A DNA stretch of 64,000 nt from Fidelibacterota bacterium (GTDB lineage Bacteria > Pseudomonadota > Alphaproteobacteria > Rhodospirillales > Rhodospirillaceae): NCBI GenBank assembly GCA_947475295.1, contig CANJLF010000006.1:62001-126000 (forward strand), read 5' to 3'. This document shows, one piece after another, positions 45,699 through 57,247 of this stretch. Numbering within the stretch: the stretch's first letter is position 1; each line of letters starts with the position of its first letter. Below the pieces are notes generated by a model, which was given only the letters and a program-made list of their open reading frames with translations, made no database searches and was not told where the DNA came from. The position numbers were made by a program, and so were the translations under genes.

Positions 45699-46145
45699 AT
45701 GATCAATCTGCACATCAACGGTCAAGATCACGCGGTGGATGTCGATCCCGACATGCCGCTGCTGTGGGTGTTGCGCGACAAGCTCGGCATGATGGGCACG
45801 AAGTTCGGCTGCGGCATCGCGCAATGCGGCGCCTGCACGGTGCAGATCAATGGTGTGGCGATGCGCTCGTGTGTGACGCCGGCGAGCGCCGTGGCCGGTG
45901 CGACGATCACCACTATCGAAGGGCTTTCCACGAACGGCGACAGCCCGGTACAGGCGGCTTGGGTCGCCCATCAGGTGCCGCAATGCGGCTACTGCCAGTC
46001 GGGCATGATCATGGCGGTGGATGCGCTGTTGAAGACGACACCGAAACCGACCGACGACCAGATTAACGCGGCGATCACCAACATCTGCCGCTGCGGCACC
46101 TACGCGCGCGCGCGCGACGCCATCCACGACATCGCTCAGGCGTAA
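45699..46145 (+). CDS. Aldehyde/isoquinoline oxidoreductase small subunit, two 2Fe-2S clusters
   Basis: 148 residues, IorA-type electron-transfer subunit of a molybdenum hydroxylase. Plant-type cluster ligands are in GCGIAQCGACTV and the following Cys of RSCVTP; the second, alpha-helical cluster in CGYCQSGM and NICRCGTY. CGGGAGA lies upstream of the ATG. 10 bp before the large subunit. Substrate could be an N-heterocycle or aldehyde. Confidence 0.94.
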   Translation: MINLHINGQDHAVDVDPDMPLLWVLRDKLGMMGTKFGCGIAQCGACTVQINGVAMRSCVTPASAVAGATITTIEGLSTNGDSPVQAAWVAHQVPQCGYCQSGMIMAVDALLKTTPKPTDDQINAAITNICRCGTYARARDAIHDIAQA

Positions 46146-46155
46146 GGGGATTAAC

Positions 46156-48312
46156 ATGAACAAAATTGTGAAACTCGACCGCCGCTCGTTCCTGAAGGCC
46201 AGCGCCGTCGCCGGCGGCGGCCTGATGCTGGGCTTCCATATGCCCACGGCGAACGCGGCCGTCACCAAGGACAGCGAGATCAATGCCTGGGTCGTAGTCA
46301 AGGCCGACGACAGCGTGCTGATCCGCGTGGCGCATTCGGAAATGGGCCAAGGTGCGATGACCGGTCTCGCCCAGCTGGTGGCCGAGGAACTGGACTGCGA
46401 CTGGAGCAAGGTGAAGACCGAGTTCGTCGATCCGCGTCTGAACATCACGCGCAACAAGGTCTACGGCGGCATGGCGACAGTTGGTAGCCGCGCGATCCGC
46501 AGCTCCCATGAATACGTCCGCAAAGCCGGCGCCAGCGCGCGCGTGATGCTTGTGCAGGCGGCGGCAAACCGCTGGAAAGTTTCAGCGACGGATTGCACAG
46601 CCAAGGCCGGCGTCATTACACACACGGCGAGCGGCCGCACGCTGACCTACGGCGCGGTGGCCGAAGCGGCGGCGAAGATTGCCCCGCCCAAAGACGTGAC
46701 GCTGAAGGATCCCGCCACCTGGACCATCGCCGGCCAGCCGAAGATGCGCCTGGACATGCAAGAGAAGGTCACGGGCCAGGCGGCCTATGCCATCGATATC
46801 CGCTTGGATGGCATGCTGTTCGCCGCGATTGCCCAAGCCCCTGTGTTCGGAGGCAAACTCAAAAGCTACGACGAAGCGGCGATTGCCGGCGCCAAGGGCG
46901 TGCGTAAGGTCGTTGCCCTGCCTTACGCCGTCGCCGTCGTAGCCGACAGTTATTGGGAAGCGCAGAAGGCGGTACGCGGTCTGCCCGTGGTTTGGGACAA
47001 CGGCGCCAACGGTAAAGTGAGCAGCGCTTCCATCGCCAAGTCCCTTGACGAAGGCCTCGCGGCAAAAGACGTGCCGGTGGCGCGTAACGACGGTGACGTG
47101 GAAAAGGCGCTCGCCGGGGCGGTGAAGACCATCAGCGCCGAATACCGCGTGCCGTACCTGAGCCATGCTTCCATGGAGCCGATGAACTGCACGGTGCGCT
47201 TCAATGCCGACGGAACATTGGATGTATGGGCGCCCACCCAGAATGCCGAAGCGATCTTGAGCGCCGCGGCGCGCGCGTCGGGTTTGGACCCCTTGAAGAT
47301 CATGGTGCACCTGACCTACTCCGGCGGCGGCTTCGGCCGGCGCGGCGGCGCTGCCCCCGGCGATTATGTCGATCAGGCGGTGGCCATCGCCAAGGCCGCC
47401 GGCGCGCCGGTGAAGCTGGTGTGGAGCCGCGAAGAGGATATACAGCACGACTTCTATCGCCCGATCTCGTCAGCCAAGATGACCGCCGCGCTGGATGCGG
47501 ACGGATATCCCGTCGCCTGGAACACCCGCATTTCAGGTCACTCTATTCTCTCGACCCAAAATCCGTCTGCCATCAAGAACAACATGGATCAGGGCTTCCT
47601 GGTCCTGTTCCACGACAACGTCTATGACGTGGCCAACGTTAAGGTCGACTATGCCATGCGCAACTCCCACGTTCCCGTGGGCTACTGGCGCTCGGTCAAT
47701 CATTCGCAGAATGCCTATTTCCGCGAGTGCTTCCTCGACGAACTGGCCCATGCGGCCGGCAAAGACCCCTACGAATACCGCCGCAAGCTTTTGCAGAAGG
47801 CGCCCAAGCAGCTGGCCGTGATCGAGGCCTGCGCCAAGGCCGCCGACTGGGGCAAGCCCCTGCCCGCCGGTCAGTTCCGCGGCATCGCGCAGATCGACGG
47901 TTACGGCAGTTATGCCGCCGCGGTGGTAGAGATCTCGATGAACGCCGACGGCAGCCCGCATGTGCACCGCGTGGTGCAGGCGATCGACCCCGGCTATGCG
48001 GTGAACCCGGATTCCATCAAAGCACAAATGGAAGGCTCGGTAGCCTGGACCATGAGCGCGGCGCTTTACGGCGAAATCACCGTCAAGGACGGCCGTGTCG
48101 AGCAGGGTAACTTCGACCGCTATCGCATGTTGTTGATGAATAATATGCCGAAGGTCGAAACGGTGATCGTGCCCTCGGGCGGATTCTGGGGCGGCATCGG
48201 CGAGCCCGGCGGACCGGCGGTCGTGCCGGCGCTAGTCAACGCCATGTTGGCCGCAACGGGCAAGCCGCAGCGCTCGCTGCCGCTGATCAAGCGTGGGACA
48301 ACTTCGGTCTAA
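46156..48312 (+). CDS. Molybdopterin-binding large subunit of an IorB-type hydroxylase, Tat-exported
   Basis: 718 residues. A Tat signal leads (DRRSFLKASAVAGGG..ANA), so the folded cofactor-bearing enzyme should be periplasmic. Xanthine-dehydrogenase-family features follow: AHSEMGQGAMTGL, EYRVPYLSHASMEPMN, GGGFGRRGG and the late catalytic Glu in GGIGEPGGPAVVPA. Arrangement and lengths match isoquinoline 1-oxidoreductase beta; the true substrate is not deducible. No cofactor-insertion gene is next to it. modABC in the same window could supply its molybdenum. Confidence 0.93.
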   Translation: MNKIVKLDRRSFLKASAVAGGGLMLGFHMPTANAAVTKDSEINAWVVVKADDSVLIRVAHSEMGQGAMTGLAQLVAEELDCDWSKVKTEFVDPRLNITRNKVYGGMATVGSRAIRSSHEYVRKAGASARVMLVQAAANRWKVSATDCTAKAGVITHTASGRTLTYGAVAEAAAKIAPPKDVTLKDPATWTIAGQPKMRLDMQEKVTGQAAYAIDIRLDGMLFAAIAQAPVFGGKLKSYDEAAIAGAKGVRKVVALPYAVAVVADSYWEAQKAVRGLPVVWDNGANGKVSSASIAKSLDEGLAAKDVPVARNDGDVEKALAGAVKTISAEYRVPYLSHASMEPMNCTVRFNADGTLDVWAPTQNAEAILSAAARASGLDPLKIMVHLTYSGGGFGRRGGAAPGDYVDQAVAIAKAAGAPVKLVWSREEDIQHDFYRPISSAKMTAALDADGYPVAWNTRISGHSILSTQNPSAIKNNMDQGFLVLFHDNVYDVANVKVDYAMRNSHVPVGYWRSVNHSQNAYFRECFLDELAHAAGKDPYEYRRKLLQKAPKQLAVIEACAKAADWGKPLPAGQFRGIAQIDGYGSYAAAVVEISMNADGSPHVHRVVQAIDPGYAVNPDSIKAQMEGSVAWTMSAALYGEITVKDGRVEQGNFDRYRMLLMNNMPKVETVIVPSGGFWGGIGEPGGPAVVPALVNAMLAATGKPQRSLPLIKRGTTSV

Positions 48313-48749
48313 AAAGGCTTCGCGACCACCAGCAGCACGATGCCGATCATCAGCAGGGTCGGCACTTCATTGAGGATTCGGTAAAAGCGCGCGGACTTCT
48401 GATTGGCGTCATGAGCGAAAGCCTTGAGACACTTCTCCATGTAGCCGTGACTGGCGCCCAGACCGAGCACAAAGGCAAGTTTCAGCCAAATCCAGCCCAT
48501 GGACCAATCCACATTCGCTTGTGGCATTGACAGCAACCCGCCGCCGAACAGGATTGTCGCGAGTGCGGCCGGACGCATAATGAAACGCATCAGCCGCGCT
48601 TCCATGCCTTTCAGCATGTTGGAAGCTTCCGAGCCGGGCGCAAGTCCGACATGATTGACGAACAGGCGCGGCAGATAGAGCAGCCCCGCCATCCACGAAA
48701 TGACGGCGATGATGTGCAGCGCCTTGAACCAGGGATACATCGTCTCCAT
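48309..48749 (-). CDS. hemJ: Protoporphyrinogen IX oxidase, HemJ type
   Basis: 146-residue, four-helix membrane protein that oxidises protoporphyrinogen IX. The conserved His of KALHIIAVISWMAGLLYLPRLF and the Lys of WIWLKLAFV, with RFYRILNEVPTLLMI at the end, identify HemJ. Last gene of the leftward haem operon, 15 bp after hemF. Its stop overlaps that of the convergent hydroxylase by 4 nt. Confidence 0.93.
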   Translation of the reverse strand: METMYPWFKALHIIAVISWMAGLLYLPRLFVNHVGLAPGSEASNMLKGMEARLMRFIMRPAALATILFGGGLLSMPQANVDWSMGWIWLKLAFVLGLGASHGYMEKCLKAFAHDANQKSARFYRILNEVPTLLMIGIVLLVVAKPF

Positions 48750-48764
48750 AGCGGGGCTACTCCG

Positions 48765-49616
48765 TTACCATTTCACGACCGGTGGCATGCTCATCAGATA
48801 GGCCTCCGGATTGGCGTCGGTCGCAAAGCCGAATTTCGTGCCGCGGTCGTAGACCAGATTGAACTCGACATAGCGCCCGCGCTTATACAGCTGCTTGTCC
48901 TTGTCGGCCTCGGTGTAGGGCTTGGCCATATGGCGGCGCACGATCTCGGGATAGATCTTCAGAAACGCCTCGCCCACCTGCTGCTGGAAGGCGAAATCCT
49001 TGGCGACGTCGCCGCTGGCCAGATCGTCGAAGAAGATGCCGCCGACGCCGCGCGGCTCGCGCCGGTGCGGCAGGTAAAAGTATTCGTCGCACCACTTCTT
49101 GTATTTTGCGTAAGCGTCGGGCGCGTAAGTGTCGCAGGCCTTCTCGAGAATGGCGTGGAAGTCACGCGTGTCGTTCTCAAAAGGAAAGGTGGGCGTGAGG
49201 TCGGCGCCGCCGCCGAACCACATCTTGCTGGTCGCCATGCAGCGGATGTTCATATGCACGGTCGGCACGAAGGGGTTCGACATATGCGTGACCAACGAAA
49301 TGCCGCAGGCGGCAAAACGGCCGCTGGATTCCTTCGCGCCCGGCATCTGCGCCATACCCTGCTCCGAGGCCGTGCCCCAGACATGGCTGACGTTAACGCC
49401 GACTTTCTCGAAGACCTTGCCGCGCATGACACGCATACGACCGCCGCCTTTGAGACGATGGCCGGGTTCGCGCGTCCAATCGGTACGCTCGAATTTGCCG
49501 CCGCCATCTAAGTCTTCAAAAGCCTTGAGAATGCGCTCTTGCAGATCGTGGTAATAATTTACCGCTTCCGCGGTGAAGCCGTTTTCCGGGCCGTCATTTT
49601 TAGTCGTGCCATCCAT
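48765..49616 (-). CDS. hemF: Oxygen-dependent coproporphyrinogen III oxidase
   Basis: 283 residues; oxidative decarboxylation of coproporphyrinogen III with O2. Family boxes: FGGGADLTPTFPF, HRREPRGVGGIFFDD and RGRYVEFNLVYDRGTKFG. No oxygen-independent HemN is in the window, so this operon is built for oxic conditions. 9 bp after hemE. Confidence 0.96.
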   Translation of the reverse strand: MDGTTKNDGPENGFTAEAVNYYHDLQERILKAFEDLDGGGKFERTDWTREPGHRLKGGGRMRVMRGKVFEKVGVNVSHVWGTASEQGMAQMPGAKESSGRFAACGISLVTHMSNPFVPTVHMNIRCMATSKMWFGGGADLTPTFPFENDTRDFHAILEKACDTYAPDAYAKYKKWCDEYFYLPHRREPRGVGGIFFDDLASGDVAKDFAFQQQVGEAFLKIYPEIVRRHMAKPYTEADKDKQLYKRGRYVEFNLVYDRGTKFGFATDANPEAYLMSMPPVVKW

Positions 49617-49625
49617 TTGTGACCT

Positions 49626-50681
49626 CTATTTTGATGTACGCTCATGGACGTAATCCACTAGACGGGCGACCGCATCGGGGTCGGTTTCGGGCCAAATGCC
49701 ATGCCCAAGATTGAATATATGGCCCGGCCCCGGCCCTGCGTCCGCCAGCACTTCGTCCACCCGCAGGCGTAGAACATCAGGCGCGGCAAACAATTGAGCG
49801 GGATCAAGATTCCCCTGAATAGCTTTGCCGGCGCCAAGGGTCTTGCGGGCGGCGCCGAGAGACGTACGCCAGTCCAGGCCGACAACATCCGCATCCAGAG
49901 TCGCGATGGAGTCCATGCTGCCGCCGCATTGGTTGGCGAAGTAAATCAGCGGCACGCCCAGGTCTTTTAGACCGTCGATAATGCGTTTGACCGGCGGCAG
50001 CGCGATGCGGCGATAGTCGTTGGGACCCAGCAACCCGCCCCAGGATTCAAACAGCATCAGGGCTTGCGCACCTGCGCCCGCCTGAGCGCGCAAGTAGACG
50101 ATCATGGCGTCGGCGAGTTTGTCCATAAGCCGTGCCGAAATTTCCGGCTCCGCTTGGGCGAAAGCGCGCGGCACGGAAAATTCCTTGGAGGGCTTTCCCG
50201 CCACCAGATAGGAGAACAGCGTGAAGGGCGATCCGGCAAAGCCGATCAGCGGCACATGGGCGGGGAGTCCAGCGCGCGTCAGCTTGATGGCTTCCATGAC
50301 AAAGGGGACGTCTTGTTCGGGATTGAGCGGCCGCAGCGCCTCCACCTGCTTCATGGTGCGCACGGGTTCGCCGATGACGGGGCCCGGCGCATATTCCAAA
50401 TCCACGCCCATGCCTTCAATCGGCACCATGATATCGCTAAAGATGATCGAGGCATCGAGGGCGAAGCGGCGAATGGGCTGCAGGGTCACTTCGGCAGCCA
50501 ACTCGGGTGAACGGGTAAGTTCGGTAAAGCCGACCTTGGCGCGCACGGCGCGATATTCCGGTAGGTAACGGCCCGCCTGGCGCATGACCCAGATCGGTGT
50601 ATGGGCAACCGGTTCGCGGCGGCAGGCGGCCAAGAACGGCGGAAGGGCGGCGGTTTTTACAGCGGGCGATGCGGTCATCAA
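49626..50681 (-). CDS. hemE: Uroporphyrinogen decarboxylase
   Basis: 351 residues, cytosolic. Signature WVMRQAGRYLPEYR at about 32, the catalytic Asp in IFSDIMVP, GFAGSPFTLFSYLV, and the C-terminal GHGIWPETDP. Two adjacent ATGs begin the gene; 16 bp after hemC. Confidence 0.97.
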   Translation of the reverse strand: MMTASPAVKTAALPPFLAACRREPVAHTPIWVMRQAGRYLPEYRAVRAKVGFTELTRSPELAAEVTLQPIRRFALDASIIFSDIMVPIEGMGVDLEYAPGPVIGEPVRTMKQVEALRPLNPEQDVPFVMEAIKLTRAGLPAHVPLIGFAGSPFTLFSYLVAGKPSKEFSVPRAFAQAEPEISARLMDKLADAMIVYLRAQAGAGAQALMLFESWGGLLGPNDYRRIALPPVKRIIDGLKDLGVPLIYFANQCGGSMDSIATLDADVVGLDWRTSLGAARKTLGAGKAIQGNLDPAQLFAAPDVLRLRVDEVLADAGPGPGHIFNLGHGIWPETDPDAVARLVDYVHERTSK

Positions 50682-50697: not shown

Positions 50698-51642
50698 CTA
50701 CTGCTGCGCCGCCTGGCGGCGTTCATTGGCTTTGTCGAGAACGCGCAAAGCGCCCTTACTCAAAAGATCTTCGGCGACGCGTACGCCAAGGGCCGCAGCC
50801 TCATTGACGGTGCCGGTCGCTTCCGCTGCGACGAAGTCCGAGCCGTCGATATTACAGGCGGCCGAATAGAGCGTGACGTTTTGGCCGTTCAACGTCGCCA
50901 GCGCGCCCACGGGCACCTGGCAGCCGCCTTCGAGGCGGCGCAAGAGCCCGCGCTCGGCCTCGGCGGCGATGCGTGTCGCGGCGTGATTGAGCGGCGCCAC
51001 CCAGCGCAAGGTTTCGGCGTCGCCCTCGCGCGTGCAGATGCCGATGGCGCCTTGGGCGACAGCGGATGGAAACACCCGCGTCGGCAGCGCTTCGCAAATG
51101 CGCTTCTCCAGACCCAGGCGCTTCAAGCCGGCCACGGCCAGGATGATGGCTTCGAAGTTGCCCTCGTCCAATTTGCGAAGACGCGTCGGCACGTTACCGC
51201 GCAGCTCCATATGTTGAAGGTCGGGCCGGGCGTGGGCCAGGAAAGCACGGCGGCGCAAACTGCTGGTGCCGATGCGCGCACCTTTAGGCAGAGAGGCGAG
51301 ATCGCCGCCGCTGGCCGTCACCAGCGCATCGCGCGGGTCTTCGCGTTCCAGAACCGCCGACAGCGCCAGGCCCTCGGTCATGACAGTGGCCAAGTCTTTC
51401 AGGCTATGCACGACCACATCGACTTCGTTGTCCAACTGCGCGCGGTCCAACTCGGCGGTGAAGAAGCCTTTCCCCGGCGTCTTCCACAAGGGGATGTCCT
51501 GCTGGAGATCGCCTTGAGTCTTGATGACGCAGATTTCCACAGGCGGCGCACCGGGCACCAGTTTGATGAGGCGCTCGACTTCATGGGCTTGCCAGAGCGC
51601 CAGCGCCGAACCGCGGGTTCCGATACGTAAAGGCTTACTCAC
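50698..51642 (-). CDS. hemC: Hydroxymethylbilane synthase
   Basis: 314 residues; joins four porphobilinogens. IGTRGSALALWQ at the start, DLATVMTEGL and RDALV loops, and the cofactor-carrying Cys in RRLEGGCQVPVGA. It begins with GTG, overlapping the response-regulator stop (GTGA), so translation of the regulator and hemC is coupled. hemB and hemD are absent from the window. Confidence 0.97.
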   Translation of the reverse strand: MSKPLRIGTRGSALALWQAHEVERLIKLVPGAPPVEICVIKTQGDLQQDIPLWKTPGKGFFTAELDRAQLDNEVDVVVHSLKDLATVMTEGLALSAVLEREDPRDALVTASGGDLASLPKGARIGTSSLRRRAFLAHARPDLQHMELRGNVPTRLRKLDEGNFEAIILAVAGLKRLGLEKRICEALPTRVFPSAVAQGAIGICTREGDAETLRWVAPLNHAATRIAAEAERGLLRRLEGGCQVPVGALATLNGQNVTLYSAACNIDGSDFVAAEATGTVNEAAALGVRVAEDLLSKGALRVLDKANERRQAAQQ

Positions 51643-52367
51643 GGCTCACCTTCCGGTTGGAAGCGATAGCCCACTCCGCGCACCGTCAAGAAGTGCCGGG
51701 GATTGTGGGGTTCGCGTTCGAAAATCTTGCGCAGACGCAGGATGAAGTTGTCGACCGTGCGCGTGGACGGGTAGACCTCGTAGCCCCAGACCTTTTCCAG
51801 AAGATCGTCGCGGGTGACGACCTCGCCCGGCTGTTCGGCCAGGACTTTCAGGATCATGGCCTCTTTTTCGGTTAGATCGTGGGCCGTGCCATCCCAGGAA
51901 TGGGCCTGGAAGGTGCGGAAGTTGGCTTCGTTGCCGGCAAAGCTGAGCGTCGTGCCGGTGGCGGGCCGCGCCAGCGAATTCTTGAACCATTCCCAGCGCC
52001 GCAGGATGGCGCGGATGCGCAGCAGAAATTCGTCCAGGTGAAAGGGCTTGGTCAGGTAGTCGTCGCCGCCGGCTTCCAGTCCGCGCACGCGGTCTTGCGG
52101 ATCGCCGCGCGCGGTCAGGAACAGCACCGGCGTGCTCTTGCCTTGCGCGCGCAACGCCCGGCAGACCTCGAAGCCATCCATATGCGGCAGCATGACATCC
52201 AGCACGAGCAAGTCGTAGTCGCCCACCAGGGCCATCTCCAAACCGATCTGGCCGTCGTGGGCGGTGTCGGCGGCGTAGCCCTCGGCGCGCATATTCTCGG
52301 CCATACCTTCGGCCAGGTGGAGATCGTCTTCCACCACCAGAATACGGCTTGTGCTCGCTTCACTCAT
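51639..52367 (-). CDS. OmpR/PhoB-family response regulator within the haem operon
   Basis: 242 residues. Receiver domain 1-120 with acidic pocket VEDD, phosphorylated Asp in LLVLDVMLP (about 54), Thr in FLTARG and Lys in YLTKPFH. After a long linker (about 121-145) the winged-helix domain runs to 240 (LTEKEAMILKVLAEQPGEVV..STRTVDNFILRLRKIFE). Five bp follow the kinase stop, and its own stop overlaps the hemC start. It should bind direct repeats, and a matching repeat lies in the hemA/hemH promoter region. Not an orthologue I can name. Confidence 0.95.
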   Translation of the reverse strand: MSEASTSRILVVEDDLHLAEGMAENMRAEGYAADTAHDGQIGLEMALVGDYDLLVLDVMLPHMDGFEVCRALRAQGKSTPVLFLTARGDPQDRVRGLEAGGDDYLTKPFHLDEFLLRIRAILRRWEWFKNSLARPATGTTLSFAGNEANFRTFQAHSWDGTAHDLTEKEAMILKVLAEQPGEVVTRDDLLEKVWGYEVYPSTRTVDNFILRLRKIFEREPHNPRHFLTVRGVGYRFQPEGEP

Positions 52368-52372
52368 CGCAG

Positions 52373-53467
52373 CTAGGTCTCCTGTGCGGCCGGCCAGGTC
52401 ACGGTGAAGGTCGCACCTTTGCCGGCGCCTTCGCTATGAGCTTGCACATGACCGTCCTCGAAATGCATGAACCGCTGGACAATGAAAAGGCCGAGCCCGG
52501 TTCCAGCGGCGTTGCGCCCGCCGTGGTTGTCGATGCGGAAAAATTTTTCAAACAGCTTCGGCCCTTGCGCGGGCTCGAAGCCGATGCCGGTATCGGCGAT
52601 TTGCAGCTCGGCCTGGCCGCCGACGCGCCGCCCGCGAATGGTCACCGTGCCGCCACCGGTGGGCTGCATGGCCGACATGGCATTTTCAATGAGGTTGCGC
52701 AGCACGCTGTCCACGGCCAAAGGGTCGGCGCGCACATCCAGGTCGGCGGGAATATCGACGTTGAACGCCACGTTGCCGCGCCGGGCAATATCGTCGAGCG
52801 TCGCCAGCACATGGCGCACGGCTTCGCCGAGGACCAGCCGGTCCTTGTTTAGCAGAACGCGGCCACGATCCAGGCGCGCGCTGTCAAGGATTTTGGAAAC
52901 CATGTTTTCCATACGCCGCAGATCGTCGAGCATGCGTGTAGACAGTTGCTGAAAACGTTCCGGCGACACCTGGCGCATCACCATGGTCTCTAGGGAAAGC
53001 TGCAAGCTCGCGATGGGCGTCTTGAATTGATGCGACACCATAGCGAGGAAATTGTCCTGCTTGCGCCGGATTTCCTTTTCGCTGGAAAGGCCGCGCCACA
53101 GCACCGCGATGGCCAAGGCCTGCACCAGCAGGAAGAAGCCGCTTTCCCAGGCATATTGCGTGACATGGCGCGCCCGAGCATCGGCCAATTCCGCGAGCGC
53201 CTCGGGCTTTAGCGTCACCGCGCCGTTGTCCACCTGGGTATGGGGAAACAGGCCGGAGATCTCCTGGGCCTCGACGCCCAAAGCCAGCATGCGCTGCGCC
53301 GCCGCCACGTCGAAATTATAAAGCGTGCGCATCTGATTGGCGTGATCCTCGGCATAGGTGCGCTGATCGACGAACCACCACACCACCTGGGCGACCGAAA
53401 ACACCTGCAGAAATATGATCGCCATATGCAGAAGTCGGGTCGGGGCCAGGGGAAGGCGGTTGGTCAT
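52373..53467 (-). CDS. Membrane sensor histidine kinase within the haem operon
   Basis: 364 residues from the ATG at 53467. Membrane segments at about 13-32 and 108-126 enclose a periplasmic region of about 75 residues with no recognised ligand domain and no CxxCH haem site. No HAMP domain. The H-box is FLAMVSHQFKTPIASLQ (His near 150), N-box NLIENAMSAM, and ATP-lid motifs DTGIGF and GTGLGLFIV follow. Starts 7 bp after hemL and ends 5 bp before the response regulator. Its position suggests it senses haem, a porphyrin intermediate, redox state or iron; none is shown. Confidence 0.93.
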   Translation of the reverse strand: MTNRLPLAPTRLLHMAIIFLQVFSVAQVVWWFVDQRTYAEDHANQMRTLYNFDVAAAQRMLALGVEAQEISGLFPHTQVDNGAVTLKPEALAELADARARHVTQYAWESGFFLLVQALAIAVLWRGLSSEKEIRRKQDNFLAMVSHQFKTPIASLQLSLETMVMRQVSPERFQQLSTRMLDDLRRMENMVSKILDSARLDRGRVLLNKDRLVLGEAVRHVLATLDDIARRGNVAFNVDIPADLDVRADPLAVDSVLRNLIENAMSAMQPTGGGTVTIRGRRVGGQAELQIADTGIGFEPAQGPKLFEKFFRIDNHGGRNAAGTGLGLFIVQRFMHFEDGHVQAHSEGAGKGATFTVTWPAAQET

Positions 53468-53474
53468 GGGTGTG

Positions 53475-54767
53475 CTAAGCGGCCGTGGCTGTGATGGACT
53501 CGCGCAAGGTCTTGGCGAATTTTGACACATCCTCGGCCGTATGGGCGAGAGACAGGAAGAGAACCTCGAAGGCCGAAGGCGGGATATAAACCCCGCGCTC
53601 CAGCATGGCGTGGAACAAGGGGCTGAAGCGTGCGCCGGCGTTTTGATCGAGGGTCTCGGCGGAACGCGGCGCGGCGCCTTTCTGGAAAGACAGCCAGAAG
53701 ATCGAACCGACTCGCGTCATGGTCCAAGGCAGGTTCACGCCGTCCAGAGCCGCTGTGACTTCCTTCTCCAGCAGAGCACTTTTTTCTTCCAGCTGGGTCC
53801 AGGCCTTCTCGCGCTCAAGAATGCGCAAGGTCGCTAGGCCCGCGGCCATGGCTACGGGGTTCCCCGACAAGGTGCCGGCCTGATAGACCGGGCCTTCCGG
53901 GGCGATGTGCGACATTAAATGTTTGGACCCGCCGTAAGCGCCCACGGGCAAGCCGCCGCCGATGATCTTGCCGAAGGTCGCGAGGTCAGGCGTGATGCCG
54001 TACAATTCGGCGGCGCCGCCCTTGGCGACACGAAAGCCCGAAATCACTTCGTCGAAAATCAGCAGCGCGCCGGCCTCACGGGTCAGGCGGCGCAGCGTCA
54101 GCAGAAACTCTTTCCGCTGCAGCAAAAGGCCGTTGTTGGCCGGGATCGGCTCGATGATGACGGCGGCGATGCGGCTGCCCTCGGCGGCGAACAAAGCCTT
54201 GAGTTTCGCTTCGTCGTCCAAAGGCAACACGCTTGTCAACGCCGCGAAGGCCTTGGGCACGCCGGCGGACGACGGTTGACCAGCGGTCACCAGACCCGAG
54301 CCCGCCGCCACCAGCAGGTGATCGGCGTGGCCGTGATAGCAGCCCGAGAATTTGACGATCAAATCGCGGCCCGTGGCGCCGCGCGCAAGGCGGATCGCGC
54401 TCATGGTGGCTTCGGAGCCCGACGAGACAAAGCGCACTTGCTCAAGCCCGGGATAGGACGCTACCACCGCTTCGGCCAATTCGACTTCCGCGCGGCAGGG
54501 CGCGCCGAAGGTGGTGCCCAACGCGGCTTTGTTCTGAATCACTTCGATGACTTCGGGATGACAGTGGCCGAGGATCAGCGGACCCCAGGAACCCATAAAG
54601 TCGAGATAGCGGTTGCCTTCCTCGTCGACCACGAAGGCGCCCTCGCCGCGCGCAATGAAGCGCGGCGTGCCGCCCACGGCCTGAAAGGCGCGCACAGGTG
54701 AATTGACGCCGCCGGGGGTGACGCGCCGGGCGCGATCAAAAAGTTCGGCGTTGGTCTCTTTCGTCAC
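53475..54767 (-). CDS. hemL: Glutamate-1-semialdehyde 2,1-aminomutase
   Basis: Second C5-route enzyme, making 5-aminolevulinate; PLP-dependent, 430 residues. PGGVNSPVRAF near the start, FVSSGSEATMSAIRLAR, IFDEVISGFR and the PLP Lys in TFGKIIGGGLPVGAYGG distinguish it from ordinary class III aminotransferases. It starts with GTG overlapping the hemA stop (GTGA). Confidence 0.97.
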   Translation of the reverse strand: MTKETNAELFDRARRVTPGGVNSPVRAFQAVGGTPRFIARGEGAFVVDEEGNRYLDFMGSWGPLILGHCHPEVIEVIQNKAALGTTFGAPCRAEVELAEAVVASYPGLEQVRFVSSGSEATMSAIRLARGATGRDLIVKFSGCYHGHADHLLVAAGSGLVTAGQPSSAGVPKAFAALTSVLPLDDEAKLKALFAAEGSRIAAVIIEPIPANNGLLLQRKEFLLTLRRLTREAGALLIFDEVISGFRVAKGGAAELYGITPDLATFGKIIGGGLPVGAYGGSKHLMSHIAPEGPVYQAGTLSGNPVAMAAGLATLRILEREKAWTQLEEKSALLEKEVTAALDGVNLPWTMTRVGSIFWLSFQKGAAPRSAETLDQNAGARFSPLFHAMLERGVYIPPSAFEVLFLSLAHTAEDVSKFAKTLRESITATAA

Positions 54768-56071
54768 GAGCGTTTCTCCTTGGGTGTGTCTTTCCCCGCA
54801 TCTTTTGGGGCGCGTTCGTTATCGGATAGGGCTTCTTCAACGCCTGCCATATAAGCCTGCACCGCCTCCGGGCCGGCTTCAGCGGCGAGCGCGCGCAGGC
54901 CTTTGATCGGCGCATGAGCCAAGCGCCGCGCGAAGCCCTCGGCCCACAGACGCAAAGCCTCGTCGTCGCCGCCGCCATTGCGCGGCAACCGGCGCAGGCT
55001 CTCCACGGCGGCTTGCTGATACTGCGTGGTCAACCGCTGCAAAAGCGGCGCGGCTTCGCGGATGGCGTATTCACTGCGCAGGCGTTCCAGGTGTTCATCG
55101 ATCACAACCCGCGCTGAAGCCAGTTGTCCTAGCTTGGCGGCGCGGCCTGAAGCGGCATCAGCGATGACTTCGTCCATGCCGACGCGATGCAGTCCCACCG
55201 CTTCCGCTGCTTCGGGATCGACGTTGGGCGGCACACCCAGATCGATCAACAGCGGATTTTTGCCAGCTGCGGCGAGCTTGGTGAGAAGAGCGCGGTCCAG
55301 CACGGGCTCGGCGCCGCCGACGGCTGTGATGATGACATCGAAGCCGGTGGGATCAGCCTTAAAGGCCTCGAGACTTTTCGCGTCGGCTTTGACCTCGGCA
55401 GCGAACTCTTGTGCGGATTCCAAAGTGCGATTGACGATGATCATCGGCAGGTTCTTCTGCGCGAAGGCCCGCGCGCAATGGCGCGTCATGGGCGAGACAC
55501 CAACAAGCGCGATGCGGCAGCTTCGTCCCGCGATGTGCTCGACCACGCGCGTGACCGCGAAATTGGCGAGCGAGTCCGCGTTGCCGGGCCGGGCTGCCTG
55601 CTGATGTACGTCTTGAGCAGCGCGCAAGGCTTCGCCGAAAATATAGTCGAGCTGCAGCCCACAGGTGCCGGCGGTGCGCGCCGTGGTCCAGGCGCCGCGC
55701 ACCTGGGCGTAGATTTCGCGCTCGCCGGCCTGAGCCGAGTCCAGGCCCGAGGCGACCAGGAACAGATGTTCGACCGCGCCCTCGTCGGTCCAGGCGCGGA
55801 AAATGCGCCGGGTTTCGGTCTCTAGCAGCGGTGTGGGGGCCAGCAACTGGCCCAGCTTGTCGCGGCAGGCTTGCACGACGAGGGGACTGTCGCCGGCCAG
55901 CACGAACTCGACGCGGTTGCAGGTGCCGATATAGGCCAGTTCCTGGGCGCCGATCTTGGCGGCCAGGGACGGCAGGCGCTGGGCGATCTGGTCCTTGGGC
56001 AGGGCCAACTGGCCCAGCCGCTCCACGCCGGCCGTCTTATATGATGCGCCTATAAGTGCGAATCGGTTCAT
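54764..56071 (-). CDS. hemA: Glutamyl-tRNA reductase
   Basis: First C5-route enzyme, reducing glutamyl-tRNA(Glu) to the semialdehyde; 435 residues. Catalytic Cys in YIGTCNRVEF (about 50), SYKTAGVERL N-terminal segment, NADPH-binding SCRIALVGVSPM, and a C-terminal dimerisation helix region. This is not the 5-aminolevulinate synthase that is also called HemA. First gene of the operon hemA-hemL-kinase-regulator-hemCEFJ. No clear Shine-Dalgarno before the ATG. Confidence 0.96.
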   Translation of the reverse strand: MNRFALIGASYKTAGVERLGQLALPKDQIAQRLPSLAAKIGAQELAYIGTCNRVEFVLAGDSPLVVQACRDKLGQLLAPTPLLETETRRIFRAWTDEGAVEHLFLVASGLDSAQAGEREIYAQVRGAWTTARTAGTCGLQLDYIFGEALRAAQDVHQQAARPGNADSLANFAVTRVVEHIAGRSCRIALVGVSPMTRHCARAFAQKNLPMIIVNRTLESAQEFAAEVKADAKSLEAFKADPTGFDVIITAVGGAEPVLDRALLTKLAAAGKNPLLIDLGVPPNVDPEAAEAVGLHRVGMDEVIADAASGRAAKLGQLASARVVIDEHLERLRSEYAIREAAPLLQRLTTQYQQAAVESLRRLPRNGGGDDEALRLWAEGFARRLAHAPIKGLRALAAEAGPEAVQAYMAGVEEALSDNERAPKDAGKDTPKEKRS

Positions 56072-56082
56072 GGTGGGTCGAT

Positions 56083-56120
56083 ATCATAGCCGTCTTTAAC
56101 GAATGTCACGGCCATGTCAC
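56083..56120 (-). promoter_or_regulatory. PhoB-box-like direct repeat and candidate -10 in the hemA/hemH divergent promoter
   Basis: ATGTCAC occurs at 56103-56109 and again at 56114-56120, separated by GGCC: two 7-bp repeats at an 11-bp period, the geometry bound by PhoB-type regulators. In hemA orientation the repeat is GTGACAT-N4-GTGACAT, and TATGAT (56083-56088) follows 14 bp downstream as a possible -10. That would give a nearly leaderless hemA message, so the -10 call is weak. The operon's own OmpR/PhoB-class regulator is the obvious candidate binder. Confidence 0.55.
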
Positions 56121-56209
56121 AGGGCCTTGCCGCGGCGGGAAATTTGCAGCTTTCCGCCCTACATAGGCCTATGGCATATCCGCGCAACCGAATGCGAAAG
56201 GAAAACACT

Positions 56210-57247
56210 TTGACCGACACCCGCTTGGCGATCGTGGTCTTCAACCTCGGCGGGCCCGACAGCCCGAAGGCCGTGCGGCCATTCCTGTTCAATCTGTTCA
56301 ACGATCCCTTCATCATCCCCCTGCCCGGACCCCTGCGTTGGCTGTTTGCTACAACGATCTCAACGCTGCGCGCGAAAAAGTCGCGCGGCTATTACGAGCG
56401 CCTTGGTGGGAAATCGGTGCTGCTGCCGGAGACCGAGGCCCAGGCCGCAGCCTTGCAGCAAGTGGCGAAGCCTTTCGCGGACGATGCACGCGTATTCATC
56501 CTCATGCGCTATTGGCATCCCATGGCGCGCGAAGTGGTCGCCGACCTCAAAGCCTACAATCCGACACGCATTGTCGTGCTGCCGCTATATCCGCAGTTCT
56601 CGACCACCACCACCGGCACGACGTTGGCCGTGCTCGCGCGCGAAGCCAAGCGCCAGGGCCTGACAACGCCGACGGAAGTGCTGTGCTGTTTTCCAACCGC
56701 CGAGGGCTTTGTCGCGCCGGTGGCCGATAAACTGCGCAGCGCCGTTGAGGCCGCCAAGGCCCATGGACGTCCGCGCGTGTTGTTTTCGGCCCACGGCTTG
56801 CCGGAGAAGATTATCGCCGACGGTGATCCCTATGAGTGGCAAGTGGCGCAGTCGACGGAAGCCATTGTCGCGAAGCTTGGGCTACCCGACCTCGATTGGA
56901 AGATCTGCTATCAAAGCCGCGTGACGCCTGTGAAATGGCTGGGGCCGCCGGTGGAAAGCGAAATCCGCCGGGCCGGCGCGGACCGTGTGCCGCTGATCAT
57001 CGTGCCGATCTCCTTTGTCTCGGAGCATGTCGAGACTTTGGTGGAACTGGATGAGACCATGCGCGATCTGGCCGCCGCCGCAGGAGTGCCGCATTTTTCG
57101 CGCCTCGCCGCCGTGCGAACCGATCCGGTGTTCATCAAGGCCTTGGCCGGCTTCACGGAATTTCTGCGCAATAAACGCACACCCTGCTCGGCCACGGGCG
57201 CACGCATCTGTCCCGCCCAGTTCGGAAAGTGCCCGCACGCCCCTTAA
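56210..57247 (+). CDS. hemH: Ferrochelatase with Cys-rich C-terminus
   Basis: Inserts Fe(II) into protoporphyrin IX; 345 residues. VFNLGGPDSP at the start, YPQFSTTTTG, the metal-site His in FSAHGLPEKII, YQSRVTPVKWLGP and the Glu in SFVSEHVETLVELD. The last 20 residues carry three Cys (CSATGARIC, then five residues, then C), reminiscent of the 2Fe-2S tail of some alphaproteobacterial ferrochelatases. I chose TTG at 56210 because AAAGGAA sits just before it and the protein then starts TDTRLAIV; an ATG six codons earlier is the alternative. Divergent from hemA. Confidence 0.94.
   Translation: MTDTRLAIVVFNLGGPDSPKAVRPFLFNLFNDPFIIPLPGPLRWLFATTISTLRAKKSRGYYERLGGKSVLLPETEAQAAALQQVAKPFADDARVFILMRYWHPMAREVVADLKAYNPTRIVVLPLYPQFSTTTTGTTLAVLAREAKRQGLTTPTEVLCCFPTAEGFVAPVADKLRSAVEAAKAHGRPRVLFSAHGLPEKIIADGDPYEWQVAQSTEAIVAKLGLPDLDWKICYQSRVTPVKWLGPPVESEIRRAGADRVPLIIVPISFVSEHVETLVELDETMRDLAAAAGVPHFSRLAAVRTDPVFIKALAGFTEFLRNKRTPCSATGARICPAQFGKCPHAP

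Follow-up and report, generated by a model that had tools for sequence, protein, structure and literature searches.

To our knowledge, the control of flux into heme in bacteria that use the C5 route is known in only a few models. The closest described one is the HemKR two-component system of Leptospira. The hem-box of the Leptospira regulator HemR is TGACA[N6]TGACA (PMC11426443), and in L. interrogans the genes of the pair lie between hemL and hemE of a hemACDBLENYH cluster (PMC2266917). In L. biflexa mutants, hemA, hemE and hemL are down 2 to 10 fold (PMC2266917). In the L. biflexa wild type, the hemA operon is repressed by 5-aminolevulinate and under iron deficit; in a hemKR mutant it is not significantly changed during standard growth and is induced about 2.5-fold by iron deficit (PMC11426443). 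This Leptospira solution has been called singular (PMC11426443). The HrrSA and ChrSA systems of corynebacteria are likewise two-component systems for heme homeostasis. In the literature searched, with most subscription journals outside its scope, HemKR in this sense is named in one paper (PMC11426443), and among the matches listed there was no report of it outside Leptospira; wider knowledge may exist.

Here, we describe a heme operon in an alphaproteobacterial genome that, judged by its sequence, is very probably governed by a member of the HemKR kind with regard to gene content, place and operator. In the window, i.e. the whole stretch of 64,000 nucleotides that was analysed, Pfam matches give the minus-strand order hemA-hemL-HK-RR-hemC-hemE-hemF-hemJ (UPF0093), in which HK and RR are a histidine kinase and a response regulator. 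The features are as follows.

48309..48749, minus strand: UPF0093 gene (PF03653), presumably hemJ
48765..49616, minus strand: hemF, coproporphyrinogen III oxidase (PF01218)
49626..50681, minus strand: hemE, uroporphyrinogen decarboxylase (PF01208)
50698..51642, minus strand: hemC, porphobilinogen deaminase (PF01379, PF03900)
51639..52367, minus strand: embedded OmpR/PhoB-type response regulator, HemR-like (Response_reg and Trans_reg_C; clade across phyla)
52373..53530 as listed, minus strand: embedded sensor histidine kinase, HemK-like (HisKA and HATPase_c; kept in relatives and other phyla)
53475..54767, minus strand: hemL, glutamate-1-semialdehyde aminotransferase (PF00202, class-III aminotransferase; named from its place beside hemA)
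54764..56071, minus strand: hemA, glutamyl-tRNA reductase of the C5 pathway (PF05201, PF01488, PF00745)
56081..56109, minus strand: inferred hemA promoter with -35 GTGACA (56109-56104), a 17-nt spacer and -10 TGATAT (56086-56081), from information peaks
56103..56120, minus strand: probable operator (hem-box), from the exact match and its conservation at hemA in relatives
56119-56104, minus strand: hem-box core TGACATGGCCGTGACA, part of the operator
56140..56179, plus strand: candidate hemH promoter, conserved blocks AAATTTGCAGCTTTCC (56140-56155) and TATGGCATAT (56170-56179) in an alignment of 10 genus members
56211..57247, plus strand: hemH, ferrochelatase, divergent neighbour (PF00762)

The likeness to HemKR concerns both the proteins and the DNA. 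In both systems a response regulator is paired with a HisKA kinase (by Pfam here), the kinase carries a His and a Thr four residues apart (H98/T102 in Leptospira, H167/T171 here), and TGACA[N6]TGACA lies upstream of hemA. The pair sits among C5 heme genes as in L. interrogans, while in L. biflexa it lies apart. Class and gene order differ, with the pair located between hemL and hemC here, as in Steroidobacteraceae-like loci. Leptospira HemR and HemK were absent from the best 80 of at least 412 regulator relatives and from the 60 matches listed of at least 5000 in a plasmid tblastn search, whose best identity was 45%. HemR was likewise absent among the 60 of 317 structure matches listed for the regulator, and among the 60 listed for the kinase the only Leptospira protein was LvrB, a different kinase, with no HemK. 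The presumed orthology to HemR is therefore drawn from the motif and the order of the genes. The listed kinase reading frame (52373-53530) overlaps the end of hemL, and conservation starts near an internal ATG at 53467, the likelier start. A structure model of the kinase, of moderate confidence (mean pLDDT 74), shows two long helices, which we take to be membrane helices, around a small mixed segment.

The window sequence reads ATGTCAC-GGCC-ATGTCAC at 56103-56120, which along the hemA strand is GTGACAT-GGCC-GTGACAT, i.e. TGACA-N6-TGACA. Thus, the two exact 7-bp units ATGTCAC spaced by N4 at period 11, which the initial annotation had reported between hemA and hemH, are present. Its span of 56083-56120 is wider than the repeat, all of which lies in 56103-56120. 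In 56083-56102 there is no part of the repeat; this stretch instead covers the larger part of the spacer, and some of the -10, in the inferred hemA promoter. The bare repeat proves nothing, because exact 7-bp direct repeats at period 11 number 6 in the window against 3.9 expected. The period-11 pattern with up to three mismatches was found once, against a shuffle mean of 2.68, and so is not in excess.

Conservation carries the case instead. A close regulator ortholog (72-100% identity) occurs in 20 of 61 genomes, our own and 60 relatives, the next best matches reaching at most 45%. The loci of the 19 relatives keep the same order for every gene seen, several of them ending at contig ends. At all 21 evaluable genus and family hemA loci that have the operon and a complete 5' end, TGACA-N6-TGACA is exact, which places the repeat beyond chance and bears out the initial pointer to hemA in related genomes; a first count gave 18 of 18, with L041 and L052 left out because their hemA is cut, and a second count added three. 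The box lies 48-49 bp before the hemA start in 20 of these loci and 66 bp in L054, or 48 there should translation begin at an in-frame ATG 18 nt upstream. As controls served the glutamyl-tRNA reductase (GlutR) genes of genomes without an orthologous regulator: 51 of the 61 genomes have GlutR, 21 of them being the positives and 30 the controls, and in the 400 bp before the GlutR match, on both strands, none of the 30 control loci had a box with up to one mismatch.

Is this association of regulator and box confined to one family? A regulator-alignment scan with one genome per species (84,980 species) gave at least 592 stretches and at least 412 relatives, of which the best 80 were used. Beyond genus and family, these 80 include relatives at 46-75% identity, with record titles of Gammaproteobacteria/Proteobacteria (Steroidobacteraceae among them), Rhodospirillaceae, Acidobacteria, Gemmatimonadota, Planctomycetota, Trueperaceae/Deinococcales and Myxococcota. 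Phyla are given here by these titles, some visibly wrong; the titles are unreliable, since the near relatives L151-L155 are titled Caenispirillum bisanense, Rhodospirillaceae and Candidatus Marinimicrobia. Among the best 80, at least one heme gene lies on the stretch at 48 of 61 related loci (L156-L215 and L230); 31 have hemA, kinase and regulator together and 13 lack any heme gene there. The 14 loci of generic regulators (39-44% identity), also among the best 80, likewise had no heme gene. Counting tblastn-matched genes only, the order is hemA-hemL-HK-RR-hemC-hemE-hemF at Steroidobacteraceae-like loci and hemA-hemC-hemL-HK-RR-hemE at others. Locus L188, with a Gemmatimonadota title, reads hemH-box-hemA-hemD-hemB-hemL-HK-RR-hemE-hemN-hemY (Pfam; hemA and hemL by tblastn), where hemY is our reading of an amine-oxidoreductase-family protein. 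In the regulator tree, built from 94 of 96 rows and rooted at the midpoint for drawing, a branch with support 100/99 sets 81 rows apart from the rest, and of these 81 the Myxococcota row L214 comes first.

Across this clade, 66 sites from 64 genomes could be evaluated, since the hemA of L210 and that of L230 recur as L233 and L238. The box was found within one mismatch in 60 of the 64 genomes, exactly in 39; in the 21 one-mismatch boxes, the mismatch is at the fifth base in 17 cases and at the first base in 4. A box with two mismatches occurs in L162, and no box was found in three of the 64 genomes (L210, L230 and L231, the last being the hemA of the L214 genome). Upstream regions resampled with a first-order model contain a box with up to one mismatch in 0.4% (0.0042) of trials per locus. 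Without the 21 genus and family genomes, 39 of the 43 others still have it within one mismatch. A third of the 99 loci (33) were not evaluable, namely 29 that gave no hemA match, 3 whose hemA is truncated at the 5' end and 1 with 35 bp upstream; 12 of them are in genomes evaluated through another locus among L231-L244, and the genomes of L041 and L052 were evaluated as L121 and L120.

The box also follows the regulator when the two are separated. Eleven Acidobacteriota loci carry the HK-RR pair with no heme gene on the stretch, and with the regulator apart from hemA, the hemA box is kept in 10 of 10 Acidobacteriota genomes, exactly in 6 and with AGACA as the first half in 4; an eleventh such genome, L201, was left out of this count. 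Conversely, L210 and L230, both with Acidobacteriota titles, have a heme operon with the regulator, no kinase match there and no box. Both the recognition helix and the wing of their regulators are altered: the recognition stretch TRTVDNFILRLRK is changed to TRVVDDLIGKLQ in L210 and TRVVDDLIVKLQ in L230, and the turn GVGYRF to GRMYRF in both; they are perhaps natural losses of the circuit. The L214 genome has a related regulator (48%) but no box. The proposal of the initial annotation that the embedded regulator controls the operon is thus upheld in that the site goes with the regulator from genome to genome and phylum to phylum, whether or not the two adjoin; the binding itself is what we infer from this pattern. 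With high probability the hem-box site is real and functional, as a conserved control site of the heme operon that the operon-embedded regulator very probably binds.

The position of the box relative to the hemA promoter suggests how it would act. We aligned 51 thinned sequences by the box. Since the set was also chosen by the box, the box columns are partly fixed by selection, which does not hold for the -10 columns, nor for the inner C and G. A second information peak, TGnTAT, appears at box positions 33-38, 17 nt after GTGACA, and this spacing stays constant while the leader from box to start varies from 48 to 116 bp. Thus, the second repeat occupies the place of the -35 element. The C and the G within N6 are each kept in 48 of the 51 sequences; together with the whole first repeat, they lie outside or at the edge of the promoter hexamers, and this points to a protein that recognises both repeats. 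A scan for consensus sigma-70 promoters found none at the hemA promoter, which fits a promoter that needs help.

We propose that the kinase and the OmpR-type regulator, the third and fourth genes of the operon, would control the operon's own promoter as follows. Two regulator molecules would bind head to tail, one on each TGACA half-site, at a distance of about one helical turn (11 bp), with the downstream half-site standing in for a -35 element 17 nt before the TGnTAT -10. Given this half-site in the -35 place, class-II activation of hemA, and with it of the whole operon, would be expected, polymerase being recruited by the phosphorylated regulator. The regulator would in this way determine how fast the first committed step, glutamyl-tRNA reductase, runs, as well as the output of its own gene and of the kinase gene. 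The feedback on the operon, regulator genes included, that had been claimed for this locus is implied by the order of the genes. In analogy to Leptospira, the kinase may be shut off by 5-aminolevulinate or a later porphyrin. In all likelihood, then, a HemKR-type two-component system has its operator in this repeat and controls the promoter of its own operon.

The sign of this control can be questioned. A bound regulator that covers the -35 and blocks polymerase would repress hemA, and the overlap of the box with the -35 position would suit this. An 11-bp-period repeat ending at the -35, with a poor -10, is typical of the activated promoters of this regulator family, and this speaks against repression. 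The Leptospira work points both ways: the induced hem operon of the iron-starved L. biflexa mutant (PMC11426443) would agree with repression, but the fall of hemA, hemE and hemL in L. biflexa mutants (PMC2266917) would not. We regard repression as rather unlikely and put activation first; the expression data on the hemKR mutant (PMC11426443) suggest that activation may be conditional, and either sign of control is possible under some conditions. Somewhat less doubtful, though still improbable in our view, is that hemH, across the intergenic space, is under the control of this bound regulator as well, as the initial annotation had it. The intergenic space common to hemA and hemH is only 139 bp, between the hemA start at 56071 (minus) and the probable hemH TTG start at 56211 (plus). 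Divergent hemH is found at 17 of the 21 genus and family loci with a complete hemA 5' end, and in L188 it lies directly before the box, though in the same direction as hemA. However, the box keeps a fixed geometry with the hemA promoter, and hemH has its own conserved blocks about 20-60 bp from the box. Moreover, hemH was not matched even at E 1 in L047, L050 and L051 (within about 3 kb upstream) and in L119 (5.5 kb), all of which retain the box, and the L. biflexa system has only weaker effects on hemH (PMC2266917). Beyond the shared position, joint control of ferrochelatase is thus unsupported. The hemH frame as listed starts with an ATG at 56114, inside the second repeat in plus-strand order; the hemH proteins of L036, L038 and L039 match from residue 1 of the 56211 TTG start.

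Two further readings concern the identity of the site rather than its effect. PhoB-class sites are 7-bp direct repeats at an 11-bp period, and the Pho box consensus is CTGTCAT-N4-CTGTCAT. The plus strand of our repeat resembles it, the regulator shares the DNA-binding fold family Trans_reg_C with PhoB, and the genome does have a true PhoB, so that PhoB could in principle link heme synthesis to phosphate here. Against this, the true PhoB is encoded elsewhere, on contig C7, the embedded regulator scores 163 bits on the PhoB equivalog model, whose cut-off is 296, and the site tracks the embedded regulator. Along hemA transcription the repeat reads TGACA and not TGTCA, the reverse of the E. coli arrangement relative to the promoter, and no phosphate genes adjoin it. 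In our own genome, no association of the box with phosphate genes was found; the 13-kb stretch around phoB (L251) has one site within one mismatch, and this lies before a phosphoribosyltransferase gene, not a phosphate gene. We rejected the Pho box and PhoB on the regulator score and the missing phosphate association, and a true Pho box is very improbable; the 'PhoB box' label of the initial annotation gives way to a motif identical to the hem-box described for Leptospira (PMC11426443). Even less credible is that the repeat is mere chance or a plain -35 element that no regulator uses. The commonness of period-11 7-mers in the window and the lack of excess of the loose pattern would allow it, but the upstream TGACA and the spacer C and G, which a -35 does not need, are kept across phyla, and the box is missing from all 30 control loci.

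Does the regulator have targets beyond hemA? A strict motif, TGACANNNCYRTGACA, matched at hemA in 19 of 19 genus genomes and only twice elsewhere in all 19, so that the further copies at other heme or iron genes that the initial annotation had suggested looking for did not turn up in these 19. One stray (L149 in G007) is inside a PLP-enzyme gene. The other (L150, G009:C118:6602-6617), present in G009 alone, follows a TonB-dependent receptor gene and precedes a reading frame with no Pfam match by about 65 bp. The relaxed motif TGACNNNNCNGTGACA gave, in six genus genomes, the six hemA sites and two strays. Of these, L252 (G000:C6:25047-25062) lies some 370 bp upstream of a gene of the PLP-aminotransferase family whose score for 5-aminolevulinate synthase stays under the cut-off, with no such match in the five other genus genomes, and L253 is inside a reading frame with no Pfam match. 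The three other exact matches in our own genome are inside an LpxB gene, inside a HAD-hydrolase gene and downstream of a glutamine synthetase gene. No second site common to the genus was seen with the strict motif in 19 genomes or the relaxed motif in six. Only L150, one of the four strays, could be a second promoter-like target, which would make a second target possible in G009 and not general in the genus. Its place by a TonB-dependent receptor gene recalls the exbB/exbD target of L. biflexa. Thus, whereas L. biflexa has hem-boxes also at hmuO and exbB1/exbD1, there is apparently one target in most of this genus.

The distribution of the operon suggests that it was acquired as a block, since 5-aminolevulinate synthase is nearly absent, the control GlutR proteins are remote and the regulator is rare in the class. 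Indeed, the synthase (TIGR01821) scores above cut-off in none of the 20 operon genomes except on one contig of G018. At 8 of 9 control loci, GlutR shares 25-28% identity with this hemA over the matched stretches, and the ninth, L125, gave no match to this hemA. Among 385 genomes drawn evenly from the same class, which was assigned as Alphaproteobacteria by record titles, the regulator was found at E <= 1e-70 only in our own genome and in G166, where the order is hemA-hemL-HK-RR-hemC-hemE and an exact box precedes hemA by 75 bp. The synthase contig of G018 (L089, G018:C267) comes from a metagenome-assembled genome with 5% contamination and may be foreign.

The novelty lies in how widely the system occurs, a single operator, promoter geometry and regulator clade being shared by several phyla, more than described so far. 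We lean slightly towards a joint reading in which HemKR and hem-box, rather than being peculiar to Leptospira, form an old, portable control cassette of the C5 pathway in Pseudomonadota, Acidobacteriota, Gemmatimonadota, Planctomycetota and Deinococcota, with nearly invariant operator-promoter geometry, that arrived in this genus with a foreign C5 operon replacing 5-aminolevulinate synthase and that in most species has its own operon as its only target. This suggests that a pathway swap from 5-aminolevulinate synthase to the C5 route can bring its own governor along. As regulator and operator are kept together across phyla, two-component heme feedback becomes testable in many organisms, and nature offers a series of variants in the first and fifth base of the box, in a wing residue that is R or W, and in two genomes that miss box and kinase together.

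Regarding this series, among the rows shown, the 14 Steroidobacteraceae-like ones whose box has a non-A fifth base carry W at regulator residue 230, and 14 of the 15 with TGACA carry R, L186 having H. L211, L191 and L193 are off the pattern, with R at residue 230 and a non-A fifth base. Wing residue and fifth base may thus co-vary, perhaps through one event in one clade. At the far end of the operon, at 45699-48312 on the plus strand, a gene pair that by eye resembles isoquinoline/xanthine-dehydrogenase-type molybdenum hydroxylases runs convergent to the last heme gene.
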